A DNA stretch of 64,000 nt, from the NCBI RefSeq assembly GCF_009689585.1, contig NZ_AP018694.1, forward strand, positions 682,001-746,000, given 5' to 3'. This document shows, piece after piece, positions 49,985 through 60,805 of the stretch (the first letter of the stretch is position 1; every line of letters begins with the position of its first letter). Position numbers and translations under genes: made by a program. The notes under the pieces were generated by a model that did no database searches, was not told where the DNA came from, and saw only the letters and a program-made list of their open reading frames with translations. The DNA comes from Aquipluma nitroreducens (lineage in GTDB: Bacteria > Bacteroidota > Bacteroidia > Bacteroidales > Prolixibacteraceae).

Positions 49985-50162
49985 AAAATTCGTCACTATC
50001 CTCCAGCTCGGAAAGCATTTAGGGTGATGTAAATTAAAATGGATTGATTCCTGAAAGATTCACAACGATCGTTTTATTTACATTCAGGTCAGTGAGCAAA
50101 TTTACAGGCCGTTTTTGTAATATGCTTATGGTGGTAATTTATCAAATATTTGGTAATTTTAA

Positions 50163-50204
50163 ATCGGATACGATATAAATATATCGAATACGATTTTATC
50201 TAAT
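50163..50204 (+). promoter_or_regulatory. Tandem 12-bp operator repeat, copy 1, before rnk-like gene
   Basis: ATCGGATACGAT (50163-50174) and ATCGAATACGAT (50183-50194) start exactly 20 bp apart. A TATCTAAT box (50197-50204) follows at the place of a -7 element. The same arrangement occurs at 59116-59157. Each unit is a short dyad (ATCG...CGAT). It is probably the binding site for a regulator acting on the promoter of the gene at 50276. Confidence 0.75.
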
Positions 50205-50275
50205 AAAAATGGCTGATCGAATTTTACACTTAATGGTTAGGTGTCAAAACAATTATAGAGTACATTCAAAAATCA

Positions 50276-50695
50276 ATGGCCATGGGAAACGAAATTATTT
50301 TGACGGAATTGGATTACTTGAGATTAAACTCATTAATCTATAGGTTACTTGATGAGAGGAATCAAAACATAAGGGAGTTGAATTTTCTGAATATCGAAAT
50401 CAGAACGGCGAAAAAGGTTGCTCCCAAAAAGATTAAGCCTAATGTTGTAACAATGGGTTCGAGTATAGAAGTTACATTCGTGGAAACAGGTAAAACAATA
50501 GAATTGAAATTGGTTTACCCGCATGAAGCAAATCACGAAGATGGGCAAATTTCAGTGTTGTCTTCTTTGGGCTGTGCCTTGTTGGGCGCTAAAGTGGGAG
50601 ATTCGATTTCATATAGAACATCAGAGGGAACTCAAACTGTGAAGATCGGAAAAGTTCTTTTCCAACCCGAAGCTAACGGGATTGATTTAACATAG
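50276..50695 (+). CDS. Rnk/GreA-C-domain-like protein (paralogue A)
   Basis: 139 residues. A short N-terminal helical segment (LTELDYLRLNSLIYRLLDER) precedes an FKBP-like GreA/GreB C-terminal domain: NVVTMGSSIEVTFVETGKTI, LKLVYPHEANHEDGQISVLS, LGCALLGAKVGDSISY and ending LFQPEANGIDLT. This is the pattern of Rnk (regulator of nucleoside diphosphate kinase), a GreA-related RNA polymerase-binding protein that lacks the acidic coiled-coil tip needed for transcript cleavage. Three more paralogues lie at 59202, 59677 and 60380. Its promoter carries the same tandem operator as the 59202 gene. Convergent with gdhA across a shared terminator. Confidence 0.82.
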   Translation: MAMGNEIILTELDYLRLNSLIYRLLDERNQNIRELNFLNIEIRTAKKVAPKKIKPNVVTMGSSIEVTFVETGKTIELKLVYPHEANHEDGQISVLSSLGCALLGAKVGDSISYRTSEGTQTVKIGKVLFQPEANGIDLT

Positions 50696-50710
50696 CCTCT
50701 TCTGTGTAAA

Positions 50711-50740
50711 AAAAGGCTGAACCTCAAGGAACAGCCTTTT
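50711..50740. terminator. Bidirectional terminator between rnk-like gene and gdhA
   Basis: AAAAGGCTG (50711-50719) pairs with CAGCCTTTT (50732-50740). A- and T-rich flanks make it usable in both directions between two convergent genes. Confidence 0.85.
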
Positions 50741-50764
50741 ATATTTTATGTAATATCAAATGAT

Positions 50765-52117
50765 TTATACAACTCCCTGAACCATCATGGCATCAGCAAC
50801 TTTGATAAATCCGCCAATATTGGCTCCTTTTACGTAGTTGATAAACCCATCTTTTTCGGTTCCGTATTTTACACAGGTTTCGTGAATGTTGATCATGATC
50901 TGGTGCAAACGTGCGTCAACTTCTTCGCGCGACCAAGGTAAACGCATCGAGTTTTGCGACATTTCAAGCCCAGATGTGGATACACCACCTGCATTGGCTG
51001 CTTTGCCCGGTCCATAAAGGATCTTTGCTTTAAGATATACTTCAACAGCTTCGGGGGTCGATGGCATGTTAGCGCCTTCCGAAACAACATAACAGCCATT
51101 CTTTATCAGCATATTGGCATCGTCTTCGTTAATTTCGTTCTGTGTTGCACAAGGGAAAGCTACATCGCACTTAATATTCCATGGAGTCTGACCTTCGAAA
51201 TACTGCACATTGTATTTGTCAGCATATTCCTTGATACGTCCACGGCGGATATTTTTCAATTCCAAGACAAAAGCCAGCTTTTCTTCATCGAACCCGGCAG
51301 GATCATACACAAATCCTAATGAATCGGACATGGTAACCACTTTTGAACCCATCTGAATCAGTTTTTCAACGGCATATTGCGACACGTTTCCAGAACCCGA
51401 AACTGTTGCAATTTTACCATTCAAGTCCTGTCCGCGGGTTTTCAGCATTTGGTCGGCAAAATAAACAGCTCCATAGCCAGTTGCTTCCGGACGGATCAAG
51501 CTTCCACCCCATTCAATCGCTTTACCAGTCAATACGCCGGTAAATTCGTTCCTGATGCGTTTATATTGTCCATACAGAAAGCCGATTTCGCGACCACCAA
51601 CACCAATATCACCGGCAGGAACATCGGTATCAGCGCCAATAAAGCGCTGAAGTTCGGTCATGAAACTTTGGCAAAAACGCATGACTTCGTTATCCGATTT
51701 TCCTTTCGGATCGAAATCAGATCCACCTTTTCCACCGCCCATTGGAAGTGTTGTCAGGCTATTTTTAAATACCTGCTCGAACGCTAAAAATTTCAAGATA
51801 CCAAGATTTACAGTTGGATGAAAGCGCAGACCGCCTTTATACGGGCCAATTGCACTGTTCATTTGGATGCGGAAACCTCTGTTTACCTGAATTTCGCCGT
51901 TGTCGTCGACCCAAGGAACGCGGAACATCATTACCCGTTCAGGTTCTACCATGCGTTCCAGAATTTTTGCATGATTGTATTTTGGGTTTTCATCGATGAA
52001 AGGCATCAATGATTCGACCACTTCTTTTACTGCCTGATGGAATTCTGATTCTCCAGGGTTTTTGGCAATTACTTTTGCCATAAACTCGTTAACTCTTACG
52101 TTTAAAATGTCTGCCAT
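50765..52117 (-). CDS. gdhA: Glutamate dehydrogenase (NADP-type, hexameric)
   Basis: 450 residues from the ATG at 52115-52117 (MADILNVRVNEFMAKV); the longer frame needs a distant upstream start. Interconverts 2-oxoglutarate plus ammonia and glutamate. Family signatures: YKGGLRFHPTVNLGILKFLA; LPMGGGKGGSDFDPKGKSDN with the catalytic Lys; DVPAGDIGVGGREIGFLYGQ; ATGYGAVYFADQML; and the Rossmann ATVSGSGNVSQYAVEKL. Length and sequence place it in the ~450-residue bacterial biosynthetic class. It supplies glutamate, the precursor for the arginine/proline cluster upstream, but is not physically linked to it. Confidence 0.96.
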   Translation of the reverse strand: MADILNVRVNEFMAKVIAKNPGESEFHQAVKEVVESLMPFIDENPKYNHAKILERMVEPERVMMFRVPWVDDNGEIQVNRGFRIQMNSAIGPYKGGLRFHPTVNLGILKFLAFEQVFKNSLTTLPMGGGKGGSDFDPKGKSDNEVMRFCQSFMTELQRFIGADTDVPAGDIGVGGREIGFLYGQYKRIRNEFTGVLTGKAIEWGGSLIRPEATGYGAVYFADQMLKTRGQDLNGKIATVSGSGNVSQYAVEKLIQMGSKVVTMSDSLGFVYDPAGFDEEKLAFVLELKNIRRGRIKEYADKYNVQYFEGQTPWNIKCDVAFPCATQNEINEDDANMLIKNGCYVVSEGANMPSTPEAVEVYLKAKILYGPGKAANAGGVSTSGLEMSQNSMRLPWSREEVDARLHQIMINIHETCVKYGTEKDGFINYVKGANIGGFIKVADAMMVQGVV

Positions 52118-52345
52118 AATAAATTTTCTAGATATGATTTTTTTGATTTGTACCAGAATTTTGAAGTTGGCACGATTAGCATCCAAAACCTTCAATGCCT
52201 AAAAATAATATCCATAAACTTAACTGCGATAAGTTCTGGTTGAATTCCGTGTTTTACGTAGGGGAGAAAATGCGAAGTACCGATTGAATCACAACGGGGA
52301 AATCAATTGAAGCAAATTTCTGGCAATCGATATTTCAGTTGCCGG

Positions 52346-52999
52346 TCATATTTCTATTATATTGTTTTTAATCGCGAACTTCACCAAATCAACGGTACTT
52401 TTTAGGTTGAGTTTTTGCATGATGTGGTTCTTATGCGATTCAACCGTACGGACGCTGATAAAAAAGCGGTCGGCAATTTCCTGGTTGGTTTGGCTTTCGC
52501 CCCAAAGTTTGAGGATCTCCACTTGGCGCGAGCTCAAATTGGCAAGGTCGGCGCTTTGACTCAGTTCGTCGGCTTTAAGACCAGAAATATAGCGGTTCAG
52601 CAACAAATGTGTAATTGATTTACTATAATAATCATGCCCGTTACGCAGTGTGTAAATTGCTTCCATCAAACTATTCCGATCCGCGTCTTTTCCGAGAAAA
52701 CCTTTGGCTCCAGCTTTGATGGTCTTAAGCACAATCTCTTCATTATCAATAACCGAGACAATCAGGATTTTTAATTTCGGGCTGCTGATATTTAACTGTA
52801 CAATAAGGTTTAGGTTTCGGACCGAAATGTCGTGCATATTCAGTATCAATACATGAATTTGTATTGATTTCAATTTTTCGACCAGCACCTCGCGATTATC
52901 GCAGGAAAGAACAACCCGAAAGTCGCTAATTCCGGATAAGAGACCAGAGACACCTTCCAGCACCAGTCTATGTTCATCAAAGATGGCAATGTCAATCAT
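52346..52999 (-). CDS. NarL/LuxR-type response regulator with Asn at the phosphorylation site
   Basis: 217 residues. The receiver domain (1-~120) keeps the acidic pair (IAIFDEHRL, Asp8/Glu9) and the Lys in AKGFLGKDA (~105). The beta-3 strand reads HVLILNMHD, so residue 54, normally the phospho-accepting Asp, is Asn. The C-terminal LuxR helix-turn-helix is intact (LSSRQVEILKLWGESQTNQE, RFFISVRTVESHKNHIMQKL). Its start codon overlaps the end of the 1405-residue gene by 8 bases, so the two are translationally coupled and should act together. It may work without phosphorylation, through protein contact or constitutively. Confidence 0.9.
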   Translation of the reverse strand: MIDIAIFDEHRLVLEGVSGLLSGISDFRVVLSCDNREVLVEKLKSIQIHVLILNMHDISVRNLNLIVQLNISSPKLKILIVSVIDNEEIVLKTIKAGAKGFLGKDADRNSLMEAIYTLRNGHDYYSKSITHLLLNRYISGLKADELSQSADLANLSSRQVEILKLWGESQTNQEIADRFFISVRTVESHKNHIMQKLNLKSTVDLVKFAIKNNIIEI

Positions 53000-55900
53000 G
53001 ATTAATAATTATTGCTGAAGTCTTTAACTTTCCGTCCATTAAAATGGTCAGCGGATTCTTAAAACGAACGTGTTTGAAATATTTGGTATCACTTATTACT
53101 TTCAGTTTCTTCAACATTTCCCAGCGCACGAAATCGGTAGGCGAGGAATGCAGAACCGAAAAGTACCCAATATTCATTGAGGTTACATTGTGGAAAAAGT
53201 GCGACCCCAATGATGATTCCAGCGGGAAATTACCGAGGCTTACTTCCACGATGACTTTGGCATTCGATATTTGTGACCAGTTTACCGGAATTCCAACAAA
53301 CCGATCCTGACTTCCCCAGCGGCCAGGTCCGATCAAAACATAGTGTCGTTTATTTTTGATCATCTGGTTATTCAATTGTTCAATTTCGGCTGCCATTTCA
53401 ATCGTTTTCAGTTTGCTGAATGTAGTGTTATCCACATAAATTACATCCCGGATATCCTTTATTTCGCCATTACCCAAGCTCGACCGTGTATATAAAACCA
53501 TTTGTGATTGGTCCAACTGATCGATCACAATATTTCGCAAAATTTGATTGCCTATCAATGGTTTAATCTGAAGCAGATAAAACGTTGGCAAACCGTTCTT
53601 TGTACGTTCGAGGTCAACAGCATATTCAATCTCGACTGGAGAACCAAAAGCTTCTTTAATGGTATTCAGCAAAATACTGATGGTTTCGGCCAGCGGTATA
53701 TAGTTGTACAGCAGAATATCGGCAAAATTTACAATTCGTGGGCCATAAGCGCTCAAGCCAGGTTCAATACGGTCGTTATTCGGATTGTACACCGAAACAC
53801 AGTGATTCAGCGTTCCATGCTTCTCTGCCTCGCTGATATCCATTAGTTTTAGAGCGGCCAGTTCACCATTTTCCAGAAAATCAAAATTCTTATCCCGGCA
53901 GTCGAGCGCGTAAAACTGTACCTGTGAGTTATTCAGTAAATCTTTAATGCTGTGAATGCAAACTTTGGGATATTTGGGCGAAAAACGGAACGATTTCCAC
54001 CCATCCACCACATAGGTTCCCAGGCCAACTGCTGCAACGGCAAAACCTTCTTCCGGTTTCATATTGGCTACCGGATAATAATTGTACGACTGGGCAACCC
54101 CACTGATATGCGGATAATAAAAGTCGCCGTATTGGTTCCCAACCAACTCCTGAAGCACGACTGCCATCTTTTCTTCTTCAATTTTGTGATTGATAATCGA
54201 AAAATAGTTCCGGGCTTTCTCTGAAAAAGTGGAAGCATAAACCAGTTTGATTGCCGTTGAAAGCCGTTCAAGGATTATCTTTTTATTGACAGTGTAATTC
54301 GGAATAATATAGGTATCGAAAACTCCAGCAAATGGCTGTGTGATCGAATCTTCGGACAAGCTAGATGACCGTACGGCAATCGGTTTGTCGATTTGCGAGA
54401 CAAAAACCCGTAATTTTTTCAGGAGCGAAATCGATAAATGAGCATCCACAAAATGGCGCCGCAATTCGGCATACGAAATATCAGGATCTAAAATTTTATC
54501 GAACAACTTATTTTTCGTGATGAAATGCTGAAATTCATTCGTACCGATCACCACCGTAATTGGGGCAAGAATATTTATCCGGTTGGCGAGTGTCGGAAAA
54601 TTTAGATTGTAAATCAGCGTGTTGATAAATGCCAGGCCACGCCCCTTTCCTCCGAGCGAACCTCCGGAGAAAGACACGATATTTTTTTCGTCAAGGCTTG
54701 ATGTTTCATCAAAACTCAGGATTTTCCCCTTCTTTTTATCTTCCCTATAATGTTTAATGCTATCCAGAAAAAACTTCCGCATCTCGTCCATGTCTTTGAA
54801 CGTATTGGCCGATACAGGGTTGAGCATTCGTGCAAGTTGAATTTCACCACGCGACATTAGCCATATTGACAATTGATTTTCAGATGCATGAAGGAAAAGC
54901 GACTCGTCGGGAACTTCCTGAAGCAGGGTTTCGAACTCGCGCAACGATTTGGCCACTCCTATTTTATTCCCCTCTTTATCACGGAACACAAAATTCCCGA
55001 AGCCCAAATATCTGGTTAGGTAATGTTTGAGATCGTTCAGTAATGTTTCCGAATTTTTGTTGATAAAAGTTACTTCAAGATCCCTGGCAACCTGTTCGTT
55101 ACGTATTTCTGACGATTGCAAAATAATAGGAAGCTTTGAAATGTGCGATTTGACGTATTTAATAAAACTCACACCAGCGTGATTGTCCAGTTTTCCACCA
55201 CGATCGAATTCTACATCCGAAATTACACAGAGTAAAAAGTCTTTGTATTTATTAAAAATGGCAATTGCTTCTTCATAATTCCTGGCCAACAGTATTTTGG
55301 GTCTCGACCTCATTTTCGAAATCTTATCGAGCTCGTTCTTCTCAAATTCGGGCAACAATTGTTGTACTTGTCCAAAAACAATGTCGTACAAAAACTGAAG
55401 GTATTTGGAATAATAAAGTGGCGAATCTTCGATCAACAAAATGACACGAACCAAACCGATCTTAGTATCGTTTTCAACATTCACTTTGTCTTCAGTTGAC
55501 TTTACGATGGCAAAAAGAATTAGCGAATCGCCATTCCATACGAACAATTTATCAACCGACCGAATTGTAGGCACCAACTCCTCAAAGTATTTGATGTCGC
55601 TTTTTTTATTCAGGAGCAAGTAAATGGGAAGCGCCTCATTCCTGATTTTAATCTGCTCACTTAAAAGAATTGGTGCTGTACGATCCATTCCTGCCATTAA
55701 GATAACCAGATCAAAATTAGTAGTTTCGAGCAAACTGAGCGCTTCTTCGGCAGTAGATACCCCTGTTATTCGTGGAACTGAAAACAGGCTGTATTGATAA
55801 GCTTCCCCCATAAATTTCTCAAAAAACGAGTCTTCATTTTCAAGGGTAAAAGCATCGTACAAAGTGGCCACAAAAAGGATATGCTTGATTTTGTACTTCA

Positions 55901-57209
55901 TCATGTCGAGATAAACGTACTTGTCGATAGCTTGCTGGTTAAAATATAGCTGAAGCGGCTTTTTGTCTTTGATCAGCGAGTTTCTGAATTCATCGGAAGG
56001 ATAAATAACTTGAGCTGGAATCCCTTTCCGGTGAATGATTTCTCGGCCCTTATAATTATTCAGGTATCCACTGATCAGCCTGGCAATATTCGTCAGCAGA
56101 TTGCGCTCTTCATGCAAAAAAGGCCCTTCGTCTTCTTTCGGAAATTGTTTCAGGTAAAAAATCTCAATCGAGCCCTTTTTATTGTCGATGGTCACAAAAC
56201 TCTCGGTTTGCAACCAGGCTGTTTCTGTAAAATTGGGACTCAGATAATGTTTCCCTTCAAACCGGATGCGTGCCACCGTATATTTTGGATATTGCCACGA
56301 CTTAGGTAGAATGGCACATATTTCCATCAAAGTTTCATCCACCGATTTGCCTTCGTCAATAATAAGGGTTGTTTGGTTGATGGCCTTTAGTTCTTTTAAG
56401 CGTTCCACGTTCTCGTGCTGAAGCTTGTTGAATACGTCATGGGTTGCCGATCCAGCAATCAGGTTTGCCAGATTAACGAGCAATTCCCGTTCTTCTTTTA
56501 AGAAAGGACCTTCATCGGCATCCGGGAACTGCTTCAGATAAAAAATCTCAATCGTTCCTTCTTTTCTTCCGGGCGCGTCAAAACCCTGAACCATTCTCCA
56601 TCTTGTTTCCCTGAAATGACGACTCTGAAAGACATTTTTATCGTAACTGATCCGGGCAACAGTTTCGCCCGGGAATTGCCACGATTCAGGCAAAATAGAA
56701 CAGATTTCCTGCAACGAATCTTCGAGCGTTTTTCCACTCTTAAGGATCTCCGAAGTCCGATTTATACCTTTTAACTCTTTTTGGCGCTCCCCCATATTAA
56801 AGGCCAATGTTCCAAGTTGGATTTTTGAGATAATTCCAATGAGCAAAGTGGTTATCATTTGCAGTGTCGATTCAGCTACTTCAATAACCCATCCAGATGT
56901 ACCGGAAATAATTTGATGGAAAAGATACAGTTCAACAATTCCCTTTTTACGATCTGGCAATTCAAAATCGCGTTTTGCCATCACCAAAGTTTCATCGAAT
57001 GATTGGTTTTTAAAGATTTGACCATCAAACGAAATGCATACCGAAATAGAATTATTGGGGATGGAATTTCCGGCAATAGCGTCACAAACTTTTTGTAATG
57101 CTTGTTTTAAATCCTCTTCCTTATCAAGAATTTCAATCATCCGGAAAGTAAGATCCTTCAGATGAAGGATCTTACTTCCTGGCAGAAACGGATCTGAATT
57201 TTTAGACAT
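52992..57209 (-). CDS. Giant signalling fusion: three GAF-like repeats, two receiver-like domains, PEP-synthase-type ATP-binding domain
   Basis: 1405 residues, no signal peptide. Residues ~10-135, 140-255 and 270-385 are three related sensor-like repeats; repeats 2 and 3 share ERxKELKxIN, ICxILPxSWQ, VARI and IEIFYLKQFP. Residues ~440-570 look like a receiver whose phosphosite position is Met505 (LVILMAGM). Residues ~588-732 are a second receiver with the acidic pair LLIEDS and Asp665 (CVISDVEF). From ~845 comes a PPDK/PEP-synthase N-terminal domain (SFSGGSLGGKGRGLAFINTL; PIAVRSSSLSEDSITQPFAG). The phosphohistidine swivel domain (TxGGxxxHxA) and PEP-binding barrel are absent, so it is unlikely to be a metabolic PEP synthase. 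It precedes and overlaps the response regulator. Confidence 0.8.
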   Translation of the reverse strand: MSKNSDPFLPGSKILHLKDLTFRMIEILDKEEDLKQALQKVCDAIAGNSIPNNSISVCISFDGQIFKNQSFDETLVMAKRDFELPDRKKGIVELYLFHQIISGTSGWVIEVAESTLQMITTLLIGIISKIQLGTLAFNMGERQKELKGINRTSEILKSGKTLEDSLQEICSILPESWQFPGETVARISYDKNVFQSRHFRETRWRMVQGFDAPGRKEGTIEIFYLKQFPDADEGPFLKEERELLVNLANLIAGSATHDVFNKLQHENVERLKELKAINQTTLIIDEGKSVDETLMEICAILPKSWQYPKYTVARIRFEGKHYLSPNFTETAWLQTESFVTIDNKKGSIEIFYLKQFPKEDEGPFLHEERNLLTNIARLISGYLNNYKGREIIHRKGIPAQVIYPSDEFRNSLIKDKKPLQLYFNQQAIDKYVYLDMMKYKIKHILFVATLYDAFTLENEDSFFEKFMGEAYQYSLFSVPRITGVSTAEEALSLLETTNFDLVILMAGMDRTAPILLSEQIKIRNEALPIYLLLNKKSDIKYFEELVPTIRSVDKLFVWNGDSLILFAIVKSTEDKVNVENDTKIGLVRVILLIEDSPLYYSKYLQFLYDIVFGQVQQLLPEFEKNELDKISKMRSRPKILLARNYEEAIAIFNKYKDFLLCVISDVEFDRGGKLDNHAGVSFIKYVKSHISKLPIILQSSEIRNEQVARDLEVTFINKNSETLLNDLKHYLTRYLGFGNFVFRDKEGNKIGVAKSLREFETLLQEVPDESLFLHASENQLSIWLMSRGEIQLARMLNPVSANTFKDMDEMRKFFLDSIKHYREDKKKGKILSFDETSSLDEKNIVSFSGGSLGGKGRGLAFINTLIYNLNFPTLANRINILAPITVVIGTNEFQHFITKNKLFDKILDPDISYAELRRHFVDAHLSISLLKKLRVFVSQIDKPIAVRSSSLSEDSITQPFAGVFDTYIIPNYTVNKKIILERLSTAIKLVYASTFSEKARNYFSIINHKIEEEKMAVVLQELVGNQYGDFYYPHISGVAQSYNYYPVANMKPEEGFAVAAVGLGTYVVDGWKSFRFSPKYPKVCIHSIKDLLNNSQVQFYALDCRDKNFDFLENGELAALKLMDISEAEKHGTLNHCVSVYNPNNDRIEPGLSAYGPRIVNFADILLYNYIPLAETISILLNTIKEAFGSPVEIEYAVDLERTKNGLPTFYLLQIKPLIGNQILRNIVIDQLDQSQMVLYTRSSLGNGEIKDIRDVIYVDNTTFSKLKTIEMAAEIEQLNNQMIKNKRHYVLIGPGRWGSQDRFVGIPVNWSQISNAKVIVEVSLGNFPLESSLGSHFFHNVTSMNIGYFSVLHSSPTDFVRWEMLKKLKVISDTKYFKHVRFKNPLTILMDGKLKTSAIIINHD

Positions 57210-57370
57210 ATTTTCCGATTAAATCTGAATTTACTGAACTTTTGGGTTAAAGTTCAGAAGCTTTTCGAAATTAACACATAATTGATTTAATTTATTACAA
57301 AAGGCGCGAAAACAGCCAAAATTTCAATTCGACCGATCCAGCGCCTTTCATGGTAAATTCACTATGCTGT

Positions 57371-58198
57371 TTAAACGAGAATTTTTACGTTGTTGCCAGT
57401 TGTATTGCAAGGAATATCCTCCTCGCATCCAAACCTTTTGACCATTTCTTCCAGATTTGGATACCATGCGTTAAAGTCGAACCCATCCACACAAACCGCA
57501 TTGTTTGTGCTGGAAACACTTACCTTATAAATACCATGACCTGTGCTTTGCACAGTTTTGTTCAAATATAGAATTGCCTGGATCGGAATGTTGTATTTGC
57601 GGGTATGTACACATGTATTCTTGATCGTGGTAGCCGAACCGATTACCAATGCATGATCGACTTTGCTGCTTCTCAGGATTTGTGTAATTGTCTTACAAAC
57701 AGCAACTTTTTTTCCACCATCTTCGCTTTCGGTAATTACAGTTACTTCGTCCGAAATAGCCCTAATCTCGTTTTCGAGCAAGATGCCATCCAAAGTTCGA
57801 GCCGTAAGAATGGTAATGATTCGATTTCCTGCAGATCGAAGTGAAGCTAAAGCAGGTAAAAGCATAACAGCACCGGGTCCGTCGCTAACACATAAAACCG
57901 TACCAAAATTTTCTATTAGCATGGGATAACCAAAAGGGCCATTGATCCTGAAAATTTCGCTTCCGAAATTCAATTCAGCTAATTGTTGGGTGTATTTATC
58001 TGCAACAAAAACTAATACTGTAATTGTTTCATTTTCCTGATTGAATTTCAGAACTGCTGCGGGAATGCCAGGTTTATCTTTTTCTATGAGAATCGAAATA
58101 TATCGACCCGGCCTGATGTCGTTTAAAACGGTCGAAGTCCTAATTTCAAGATTCGCCACATTAGCAGATATGCTTTTCTTAGCTATGATTAAATTCAT
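57371..58198 (-). CDS. Ferredoxin-NADP reductase/NfnA-like protein lacking most Fe-S cysteines
   Basis: 275 residues from the ATG at 58196-58198; a longer frame adds a non-homologous leader. The fold is that of DHOD-B/NfnA/SudB electron-transfer subunits: the FAD loop IRPGRYISILIE (~29-40), RINGPFGYPM and an NAD domain. Family members normally end with a [2Fe-2S] motif GxCGxCR...CVDGPxFDG. Here the corresponding region is TGHGIYKVSVSSTNNAVCVD, with only the last Cys (~236) of four kept. The nucleotide loop VSDGPGAVMLLP is also altered from GGGxGxAPL. No NfnB partner gene is adjacent. It may bind FAD but probably cannot hold the usual cluster. It lies between the giant fusion and the MarR-like regulator, same direction. 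Confidence 0.75.
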   Translation of the reverse strand: MNLIIAKKSISANVANLEIRTSTVLNDIRPGRYISILIEKDKPGIPAAVLKFNQENETITVLVFVADKYTQQLAELNFGSEIFRINGPFGYPMLIENFGTVLCVSDGPGAVMLLPALASLRSAGNRIITILTARTLDGILLENEIRAISDEVTVITESEDGGKKVAVCKTITQILRSSKVDHALVIGSATTIKNTCVHTRKYNIPIQAILYLNKTVQSTGHGIYKVSVSSTNNAVCVDGFDFNAWYPNLEEMVKRFGCEEDIPCNTTGNNVKILV

Positions 58199-58367
58199 TT
58201 CATATCGGATTTTAAAAAGTCTTTCAATATAGATTGAATCAAACACAGAAAAAAAACCGTTGGCAGAATTAAGTGAATCATGTACGTGAAAAACGGAATA
58301 ACAAGTAACCGGATTTCGGATTGTTCGGCCTGCTGATATTTCGAAATGTGATTCCCATTTTAAAGTT

Positions 58368-59072
58368 TTATTTATACAAATGCTTGAGCGAATCCATTAA
58401 ATTCGACAATTCGGCAAAAGGTTTTGCGTTATGCTTTTGGAAAACTTCGTTATGAAAATCATCAATTTCTTCCAAAACTGGCAAAACTTTCTTCCATTTA
58501 TTATCACTTATTGCAGTAAAGAACATTGTGCTTTCATCACTTATTCGCTTTTGGGCTTGCTCATAAACAACTCTTCCCTGATCAGACATTATAAGCAGTT
58601 TAATTCTTTTGTCTGTTTCATCCTGTATCTCGAATAGTAAACCGTTATTAATCAAACGCCTGATTGTATCCATACCAGTCGTATATTCCAGATGATAAAT
58701 ATTGATCAGATCGGTCTTCTTTGCTCTTTCCAACATATCAACTGCCTGTAGGAATAGAAATTCCAAACGAGAATTGATTACCATATCTTTCAGCGCTTTC
58801 CGTATATAAGATTCATGATACCTGGCAATTCCGGCAGCAGCTTCCAGAAACCTGATTTTATCATCAAAATGATTTTTAAAAGGGACTGAAGCTCCCGGAT
58901 TACGAGCTGATATTTTTTTATCTGCTATTTTCTCCTGAAGTTCAGGTTCTTCGTGAGATTTACTTACAATCCACTCGGCAAAATTCAGAACATCTAATTG
59001 ATTATTCTCAAGTTCAAAACTTTCATAAAGGTCAATCAACTGTTTTAGAACAGCATACTTATTTCCCATCAT
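58368..59072 (-). CDS. MarR-like winged-helix transcriptional regulator
   Basis: 234 residues from the ATG at 59070-59072 (the next codon is also ATG). An N-terminal helical segment of ~95 residues precedes a winged-helix region: FLFLQAVDMLERAKKTDLIN, YHLEYTTGMDTIRRLINNGL, EIQDETDKRIKLLIMSDQGR. The last is a wing plus MarR-style beta hairpin with a D-x-R pair. A C-terminal dimerisation helix follows. It diverges from the rnk-like gene at 59202 across the tandem ATCGGATACGAT operator, so it is the leading candidate for the protein that binds it. The effector is unknown. Downstream, in the same direction, is the NfnA-like gene 170 bases away. Confidence 0.8.
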   Translation of the reverse strand: MMGNKYAVLKQLIDLYESFELENNQLDVLNFAEWIVSKSHEEPELQEKIADKKISARNPGASVPFKNHFDDKIRFLEAAAGIARYHESYIRKALKDMVINSRLEFLFLQAVDMLERAKKTDLINIYHLEYTTGMDTIRRLINNGLLFEIQDETDKRIKLLIMSDQGRVVYEQAQKRISDESTMFFTAISDNKWKKVLPVLEEIDDFHNEVFQKHNAKPFAELSNLMDSLKHLYK

Positions 59073-59115
59073 TATATTTTTTGTGTAAAAGTATAAAAAC
59101 ATTTACTATGTTTGT

Positions 59116-59157
59116 ATCGGATACGATGTATTAATATCGGATACGATTTTAATTTTA
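59116..59157 (+). promoter_or_regulatory. Tandem 12-bp operator repeat, copy 2, between marR-like and rnk-like genes
   Basis: Two identical 12-mers ATCGGATACGAT (59116-59127 and 59136-59147), 20 bp apart. TAATTTTA (59150-59157, near the -7 consensus TAnnTTTG) sits at the same distance as the TATCTAAT box at 50197. The first unit is inside the larger palindrome GTATCGGATAC. Confidence 0.78.
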
Positions 59158-59201: not shown

Positions 59202-59621
59202 ATGTTAAAACTATTAATATTTAAAGAATTTGAGGTTAAAGAAACTCAAAATAAGTCGGTAACCTATTCTGATTACTTCAGGCTAATGGATATGATAAAG
59301 ACTGATGTTGGGAAAGAAGAGGTTTATCCAAAGCGATTACATTATCTTTTTCTGGCTTTGACCTTTAGTGTCAAATTTGCATCAAATCAAATTCCTGAGA
59401 ATTTTGTCAGGATGAATTCGACTGTATTGATAACCAATTCAGAACTCATAAAACAACGAATACGGATTGTATATCCCGGAGAAGTGAAATCGAACGATGA
59501 TTATTCAATTTATAGCTTGATGGGATTAGTTTGTTTGGGACATCAAGAACAAGATATTGTAACTTACATGGATGGAGAAAAAGTAAAGCAACTCAGAATA
59601 GAAAAAATTATTTCACATTAA
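59202..59621 (+). CDS. Divergent Rnk-like protein (paralogue B)
   Basis: 139 residues from the ATG at 59202. The longer frame would start at a TTG within the operator and is rejected. The middle matches the other paralogues: NFVRMNSTVLITNSELIKQR, RIVYPGEVKSNDDYSIYSLM, GLVCLGHQEQDIVTYMDGEK. It lacks the terminal YQPEANG segment that the others keep, ending LRIEKIISH. The N-terminal portion (VTYSDYFRLMDMIKTDVGKE) aligns with the TELDYLRLNSLI helix. It is the most diverged of the four. It is directly under the tandem operator and precedes paralogue C by 55 bases. Confidence 0.7.
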   Translation: MLKLLIFKEFEVKETQNKSVTYSDYFRLMDMIKTDVGKEEVYPKRLHYLFLALTFSVKFASNQIPENFVRMNSTVLITNSELIKQRIRIVYPGEVKSNDDYSIYSLMGLVCLGHQEQDIVTYMDGEKVKQLRIEKIISH

Positions 59622-59676: not shown

Positions 59677-60090
59677 ATGAAAAGGAACATTATTATTACT
59701 GATTACGACTATGTTAGACTAGGCAATCTGATTGGTTCGATTAAGAAAGCTAAAAATGAAGAGCTCAGTAACCTAACCATTTTATGCGAAGAGATTGCTC
59801 GTGCCGAAAGGGTAAATCCGAAAGAAATTGAACCTGACTTTGTAACCATGAACTCTCAAGTTGAGGTAATTGATTTAGATAACGGAAAAGTGATGACTAT
59901 AAAGCTTGTGTATCCTAAAGATGCCGATTTTAGAAAGGGAAATATTTCCATTCTCTCACTTTTAGGTAGCGCGCTATTGGGTTACAGGGTTGGAAGCATC
60001 ATAAAGTTTGATGCCCCTTTGGGCGAAAAAAGAATTAGAATTAAAAGCATTATTTATCAACCCGAAGCAAATGGGGTTTTTGATGTTTAG
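59677..60090 (+). CDS. Rnk/GreA-C-domain-like protein (paralogue C)
   Basis: 137 residues. N-terminal helix ITDYDYVRLGNLIGSIKKAK, then the FKBP-like domain: DFVTMNSQVEVIDLDNGKVM, IKLVYPKDADFRKGNISILS, LGSALLGYRVGSIIKF and the ending IIYQPEANGVFDV. It is closest to paralogue A (50276) in motif content and spacing. Probably transcribed with paralogue B from the promoter carrying the tandem operator. In E. coli, Rnk affects nucleoside diphosphate kinase levels and binds RNA polymerase; the role here is unknown. Confidence 0.83.
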   Translation: MKRNIIITDYDYVRLGNLIGSIKKAKNEELSNLTILCEEIARAERVNPKEIEPDFVTMNSQVEVIDLDNGKVMTIKLVYPKDADFRKGNISILSLLGSALLGYRVGSIIKFDAPLGEKRIRIKSIIYQPEANGVFDV

Positions 60091-60266: not shown

Positions 60267-60379
60267 TCCAAAGCTTTTAGCTTGCCTAAAGATTTAACCA
60301 TCCGCTGGCTGACTTTAATCTCCAATTAGGCCAGCGGATTTATATAAAGCAAATGTGTAACAATCAAAGATCAAATAAG

Positions 60380-60805
60380 ATGATTATCTCAACTTTAGAT
60401 TCCGAGTTGCTGAGGAAATGCATTCGAGCTGTTGAAGGTCGGCACACAACCAGATTTGATGAGATACAGTTATTAAAAAGGAAAATCTCGTCAGCATATA
60501 AGGTAAATCCTCAGGATGTGCCGCGAGATATTGTTACAATGAACTCTTTTGTAGAGCTTCAACGTTGCAATACAAATACAACATTTATCATAAAACTTGT
60601 ATTTCCTGAATTTGAAAATATAAAGGAAAGCAAGATTTCTATTTTTTCTGCTCTGGGGACAGCTATTTTCTCCGAAAAAGTCGGAGGTGAAGTAGTGTAC
60701 AAGACTTGGAAAAATGAGAACCACATCAAAATCACCGATGTGATATTTCAACCGGAAGCAAATGGAAATTACTATGTCGATAAACACGATTATGGTTATT
60801 TCTGA
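60380..60805 (+). CDS. Rnk/GreA-C-domain-like protein (paralogue D)
   Basis: 141 residues from the ATG at 60380; an ATG at 60353 would add MCNNQRSNK and cannot be excluded. N-terminal helix STLDSELLRKCIRAVEGRHT, then DIVTMNSFVELQRCNTNTTF, IKLVFPEFENIKESKISIFS, ALGTAIFSEKVGGEVVY and the conserved end VIFQPEANGNYYV. Gly residues of the LGxALLG turn are partly replaced (LGTAIFSEK), so it is less conserved than A and C. Last gene of the rightward rnk-like group and convergent with the cyd genes. Confidence 0.78.
   Translation: MIISTLDSELLRKCIRAVEGRHTTRFDEIQLLKRKISSAYKVNPQDVPRDIVTMNSFVELQRCNTNTTFIIKLVFPEFENIKESKISIFSALGTAIFSEKVGGEVVYKTWKNENHIKITDVIFQPEANGNYYVDKHDYGYF

Follow-up and report, generated by a model that had tools for sequence, protein, structure and literature searches.

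Regulators of the MarR family are homodimers joined through their N- and C-terminal helices, and are released by ligand or oxidation. Escherichia coli Rnk (3BMB) is an RNA polymerase-interacting protein of unknown function, encoded by a single rnk gene that is not known to have such a regulator as a neighbour. According to PMC9892617, two adjacent sites are common in the operators of MarR proteins, and in the case of MexR two palindromes overlap the promoters of both regulator and target. The Bacteroidetes promoter consensus (sigma-ABfr), as given in PMC7366714, is TAnnTTTG at -7 with TTTG near -33.

The locus analysed here resembles the mexR-mexAB-oprM intergenic region in that two palindromes overlap divergent promoters, a likeness that is here one of sequence only and in which the marR promoter is the less certain. 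The two systems differ in that MexR and the MarR-like protein share 16% identity in a structural alignment, the operator arms are GTTGA in MexR and ATCG/CGAT here, and the MarR-like protein, unlike MexR, has 234 aa with an N-terminal extension. Moreover, MexR targets an efflux pump, while the putative targets here are Rnk-like genes. In contrast to E. coli, several rnk-like paralogues per genome stand beside a dedicated regulator, and their products miss the curated Rnk cut-offs. The -7 consensus is that of sigma-ABfr promoters, here placed in a fixed register with the operator; the Rnk-like targets and this strict register are what is particular to the module. No description of a marR-rnk module was found in the literature searched, among the matches listed and with subscription papers and preprints mostly outside its scope. 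The sequence-only reading had called the regulon apparently undescribed; the general plan of a MarR double operator is known from MexR.

The window, i.e. the whole 64,000-nt stretch of DNA analysed, carries two 32-bp elements of the form ATCGRATACGAT-N8-ATCGRATACGAT, exact at both sites. These and the neighbouring features are as follows.

50154..50161, + strand: -7 box TAATTTTA of rnk-like gene A (TAnnTTTG, 1 mismatch)
50163..50174: operator A, palindrome 1, ATCGGATACGAT (sequence scan)
50183..50194: operator A, palindrome 2, ATCGAATACGAT, 20 bp centre to centre from palindrome 1
50276..50695, + strand: rnk-like gene A, PF01272 at 69.8 bits; by homologues, the start may be the ATG at 50282
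58368..59072, - strand: MarR-like regulator, 234 aa, MarR-type winged-helix fold
59080..59083, + strand: candidate -33 TTTG of the rnk promoter, spacer 23
59086..59093, - strand: candidate -7 box TACTTTTA of the marR promoter, a box-like match
59107..59114, + strand: -7 box TATGTTTG of the putative rnk operon, ending 1 nt upstream of palindrome 1
59116..59127: operator M, palindrome 1, ATCGGATACGAT, spanning the point where rnk transcription is expected to begin
59136..59147: operator M, palindrome 2, ATCGGATACGAT (sequence scan)
59202..59621, + strand: rnk-like gene 1, a divergent paralogue, PF01272 at 26.9 bits, exactly at the 26.9 cut-off
59677..60090, + strand: rnk-like gene 2, PF01272 at or above the cut-off
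60380..60805, + strand: rnk-like gene 3, PF01272 at 47.8 bits; start at 60353 in the open reading frame list

A longer MarR-like reading frame (from 59102) would start inside the promoter.

The elements at 50163-50194 and 59116-59147 were the only matches in the window at up to 3 mismatches (expected 0.00), and none of 100 shuffles of the window gave any pair. The sequence-only reading had proposed two exact pairs with the same 20-bp spacing, both preceding Rnk-like genes and the second adjoining a divergent MarR-like gene, and all of this was borne out, with GreA_GreB domains of 69.8 and 26.9 bits encoded downstream. The operator unit is a 12-bp palindrome, ATCG-N4-CGAT. Single 12-mers with up to 2 mismatches occur 25 times in the window against 11.2 expected, so that the distinctive feature is the pair and not the unit. 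Since the unit is itself palindromic, the labels "tandem" and "inverted" carry little meaning; the genome's other two pairs have an inverted second unit. When the window's two promoter regions were compared, a good alignment was obtained at the operator only (36 bp, 86%), the remaining matches being short and weak or inside the operator. On this ground, the operator as a leftover of duplication was set aside.

The genome (5,712,279 bases) was scanned at up to 3 mismatches with spacers of 8, 9 and 10 bp. Four clear pairs were found in the 5.71 Mb, two of them in the window and the others at 4.83 Mb, in a paralogous locus, namely 4828169-4828202 (spacing 22, arms intact) and 4832794-4832825 (spacing 20, one arm mismatch in the first unit). 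All four precede Rnk-like genes. Two more places with 3 mismatches, 5548790 (spacing 22) and 2732569 (spacing 21), are taken as chance, as are 7 of the 14 exact single units ATCGNATNCGAT, which lie outside the four pairs that hold the other 7. The regulon is thus small, as had been predicted, and the pair does not occur in many random copies inside genes, an outcome named beforehand as speaking against it; its extent had to be widened from the window's two genes to the paralogous locus. There (L004), a marR gene is divergent from three rnk-like genes, and another rnk-like gene has its own operator. The two marR-rnk modules of the genome share 85% identity over 2443 bp and its two A loci 76.5% over 558 bp, a paralogy that explains the likeness between the two loci.

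Across L094-L125 (420,675 bases), 35 pairs with up to 2 mismatches have spacings of 20-22, a figure that takes in L109 at 6745 and L121 at 16159, neither of them counted as an operator of its own; the remaining spacings between 13 and 60 together give 16. These counts support the suggested spacing of two helical turns and, together with the shuffles, led us to reject a chance origin of the pairs. Among the 41 operators defined below, the spacing is 20 in 21 cases, 21 in 15 and 22 in 5, and conservation reaches 98-100% in the arms of unit 1 and 66-100% in those of unit 2, against flank means of 57% upstream and 46% downstream, values that are partly set by construction because the search for the sites was confined to spacings 20-22 and allowed few mismatches in the arms.

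Both -7 boxes of the window end 1 nt upstream of the first palindrome. The equal distance to a putative -7 box reported earlier therefore stands as regards a shared box, with the correction that the informative box is the one directly upstream of the operator. A set of 40 operators was assembled from the own genome (4), G014 (2), G009 (1), L095-L123 plus L125 (30), two extra sites in L123, and L083. In 39 of them, the end of a TAnnTTTG box (up to 1 mismatch allowed) lies exactly 1 nt ahead of unit 1; the sole exception is the marR-side pair of L120, which has no -7 box in register. Since the -7 box was not used in choosing these 40 sites, the register is not a product of construction. By hand, L127 was added and, for L120, the rnk-side pair took the place of the marR-side one (both additions with 3 mismatches); in the resulting 41-operator set (38 distinct sequences), the box is in register in 41 of 41, compared with 47 of 1763 other upstream-flank positions. 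The pairs outside this set are those of L094 (same genome as G014), L109 at 6745 (unit shared with one used) and L121 at 16159, and the marR-side pairs of L119, L120, L121 and L123; among these, a -7 box was sought in that of L120 only. In the rnk direction, the 40 operators gave 13 occurrences of TTTG with a spacer of 23 and 8 with a spacer of 20. In the marR direction, 28 operators gave box-like matches (up to 1 mismatch) at offsets 19-22 (22), 14 (9) and 53-56 (12), and the matches at 14 and 53-56 make the marR promoter less certain than the rnk promoter. The operator would lie across the rnk start and reach the marR -33 region.

Palindrome 1 starts 1 nt after the -7 box, so that a dimer bound there would lie over the start site, as fits a repressor. 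We put at roughly 0.8 the probability that the MarR-like protein binds the 32-bp element as a double operator, through which it would repress rnk and its own gene. The same protein might bind in this manner and yet activate rnk, or both activate and repress, given that the sign of regulation is unreadable from the sequence and that the operator also lies upstream of marR; the repressor-like position of palindrome 1 makes this rather unlikely. It is less likely still that the repeat acts as an RNA hairpin in the 5' leader of the rnk messenger. In favour of this, the expected transcript would begin with the repeat, and perfect inverted repeats are found among the pairs, but the unit centres are reverse complements in only 11 of the 41 operators and equal in 7, so inter-unit pairing is not kept. 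In addition, with the expected start site inside palindrome 1, this unit would be only partly transcribed, and the two-helical-turn preference fits dimers bound to DNA. The hairpin was set aside as the main reading because the unit centres are not kept complementary.

The assignment of the operator to the MarR-like protein was examined by its conservation. Within the bacterial family, 25 of 140 genomes gave a match to this protein (E up to 1e-8); 22 of these, after the three weakest were left out, were treated as orthologues (E up to 1.2e-18), with two copies in the own genome. In a named collection, 32 loci encode a relative, spanning Mariniphaga, Mangrovibacterium, Sunxiuqinia, Maribellus, Draconibacterium, Gaoshiqia, Plebeiobacterium and other Bacteroidales; since many of these loci come from the same genomes as the G-numbered set, the two sets were not summed. 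A pair with up to 2 mismatches lies between marR and rnk in 31 of the 32, placing a palindromic operator, as a sequence feature, at the promoters of regulator and target. The exception is L124, which has no pair and where the contig end leaves only about 150 bases before marR. This supports the proposed role of the MarR-like gene as the probable regulator. Its product has a winged-helix fold of MarR type in a structure model that is a monomer and from which the roles assigned leave out the N-terminal ~60 residues. In L119, L120, L121 and L123, other DNA lies between marR and rnk, yet the pair is kept at both genes. The better pair is at rnk in L119, L121 and L123, where the marR-side pair has 3 mismatches; L120 is the reverse, with 2 mismatches at marR and 3 at rnk. 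A gene is inserted between marR and rnk in these four loci (L120:7161-7871), and its L120 copy has no Pfam match at E up to 0.001.

Binding of the pair by another regulator was also considered, either the response regulator at 52346-52999, whose gene sits between the two sites of the window and which had been suggested as a candidate partner, or a global factor. In the stretches around marR, however, this response regulator is found only in the own genome and G014, while pairs lie beside marR in nearly every locus; it was set aside as not conserved beside the operator. For a global factor, four clear sites in a genome are few. We consider either binder highly improbable, and the MarR-like protein is retained as the likely one.

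The association was then compared with several controls. The exact pattern gave 23 forward matches in the 140 genomes and the reversed control pattern 2; of the former, 16 have marR or rnk as a neighbour, and of the 7 that do not, 6 have a spacer of 6 or 12 bp. Neighbour gene clusters contained marR in 34 of 34 loci and rnk in 33, the next commonest cluster being present in 5, and among these 34 loci there was no conserved neighbour beyond rnk as a clue to the signal. Eleven Rnk-like genes from 11 genomes, taken from 22 matches not linked to marR, had no pair (0/11; up to 3 mismatches, spacings 19-23, stretches of 2.4-4.5 kb). Operator-less Rnk-like genes thus exist, including in module-bearing genomes. 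Likewise, none of 14 distant MarR homologues had rnk, or a pair at up to 2 mismatches, closer than about 1.5 kb. In a phylum sample of 395 genomes, 13 matched the MarR-like protein (E up to 1e-20), and among the 12 other matches rnk occurred within the 1.5-kb flanks in G150 only. At that locus (L127), the search at up to 2 mismatches gives no pair, and there is one with 3 mismatches, spacing 22 and the -7 box in the same register. The operators across loci are related by descent.

All four rnk-like genes of the window reach or exceed the cut-off of PF01272 (GreA/GreB C-terminal domain). The genome has nine GreA_GreB domain genes, eight of them Rnk-like, and the ninth, at 3236256, is probably GreA. 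Each of the four operators heads a gene group, and together these groups take in all eight Rnk-like genes (1 + 3 in the window and 3 + 1 in the second locus); the genes behind each operator may be co-transcribed. Between genes 2 and 3 there is a gap of about 290 bp without a pair inside, which makes co-transcription of gene 3 with gene 2 uncertain; gene 3 may have its own promoter. With the curated Rnk model NCBIfam PRK05753, the window genes scored 97.9, 37.1, 101.6 and 66.5 bits, all below the cut-off of 109, and with Pfam Rnk_N the best window score was 22.8 (cut-off 23.7), hence the name "Rnk-like". The model of the gene 2 product (137 aa, helix 9-42) has a short N-terminal coiled coil as in Rnk (~136 aa), and its top structural match is 3bmb (E. 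coli Rnk). The Rnk-like proteins, of 137-141 aa, do not show the long N-terminal coiled coil of the GreA/GreB cleavage factors (~158 aa), and GreA 1grj aligns with profile positions 33-127 only. Gene 1 is strongly diverged and yet kept in the second locus, which suggests, by sequence, a distinct role among the paralogues.

Taken together, these features suggest that a MarR-type protein of a group of Bacteroidetes very probably switches its own and the neighbouring Rnk-like genes via a double site. Two MarR dimers would sit side by side on one DNA face, one per 12-bp palindrome, and by covering the rnk start site would block initiation of the rnk genes; on its other side, palindrome 1 adjoins the divergent marR promoter and could provide autoregulation. 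With the same operator at 50163 and in the paralogous locus, eight Rnk-like genes would fall under one switch. An inducing signal would release MarR, whereupon the Rnk-like proteins would rise, presumably bind RNA polymerase, and compete with GreA for it. The presence of a dedicated regulator that is conserved and has a defined operator points to Rnk-like proteins being turned on and off in these bacteria. More tentatively, and on balance doubtful, the module could be self-contained and inducible, a MarR-type sensor with a diversified Rnk-like set, in which the signal changes the occupant of the RNA polymerase secondary channel and shifts transcription globally, rnk1 to rnk3 differ in role, and duplication of the module strengthens the switch. 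As a regulator-operator-promoter unit with a fixed 1-nt register from -7 box to operator, the module gives a concrete handle on what Rnk-like proteins do; Rnk-type function would become directly testable if the signal were found or if a marR deletion locked these proteins in one state.

Several other genes lie nearby. In L004 (5223-7813), universal stress protein and sodium/proton exchanger genes stand between marR and the single rnk-like gene, and in L117 (5395-6783) an exchanger-like match (45%) follows the rnk-like genes. At 52346-57209 (- strand) of the window, the gene of the response regulator lies next to that of a 1405-aa protein, which carries a PPDK_N (phosphoenolpyruvate synthase-type) domain together with a weak receiver-like stretch; among the loci searched, this combination occurs only in the own genome and G014. 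A glutamate dehydrogenase-type gene adjoins rnk-like genes in the own genome, G014, L123 and L122, identified by Pfam for the window and L123 copies and by similarity for the others:

50765-52195, - strand: window copy
L062:8182-9522
L123:10118-11452
L122:5387-6535

A link of the module to nitrogen metabolism is possible, from few loci. In L123, the glutamate dehydrogenase-type gene is on the same strand as the operator-bearing rnk-like gene and follows it.
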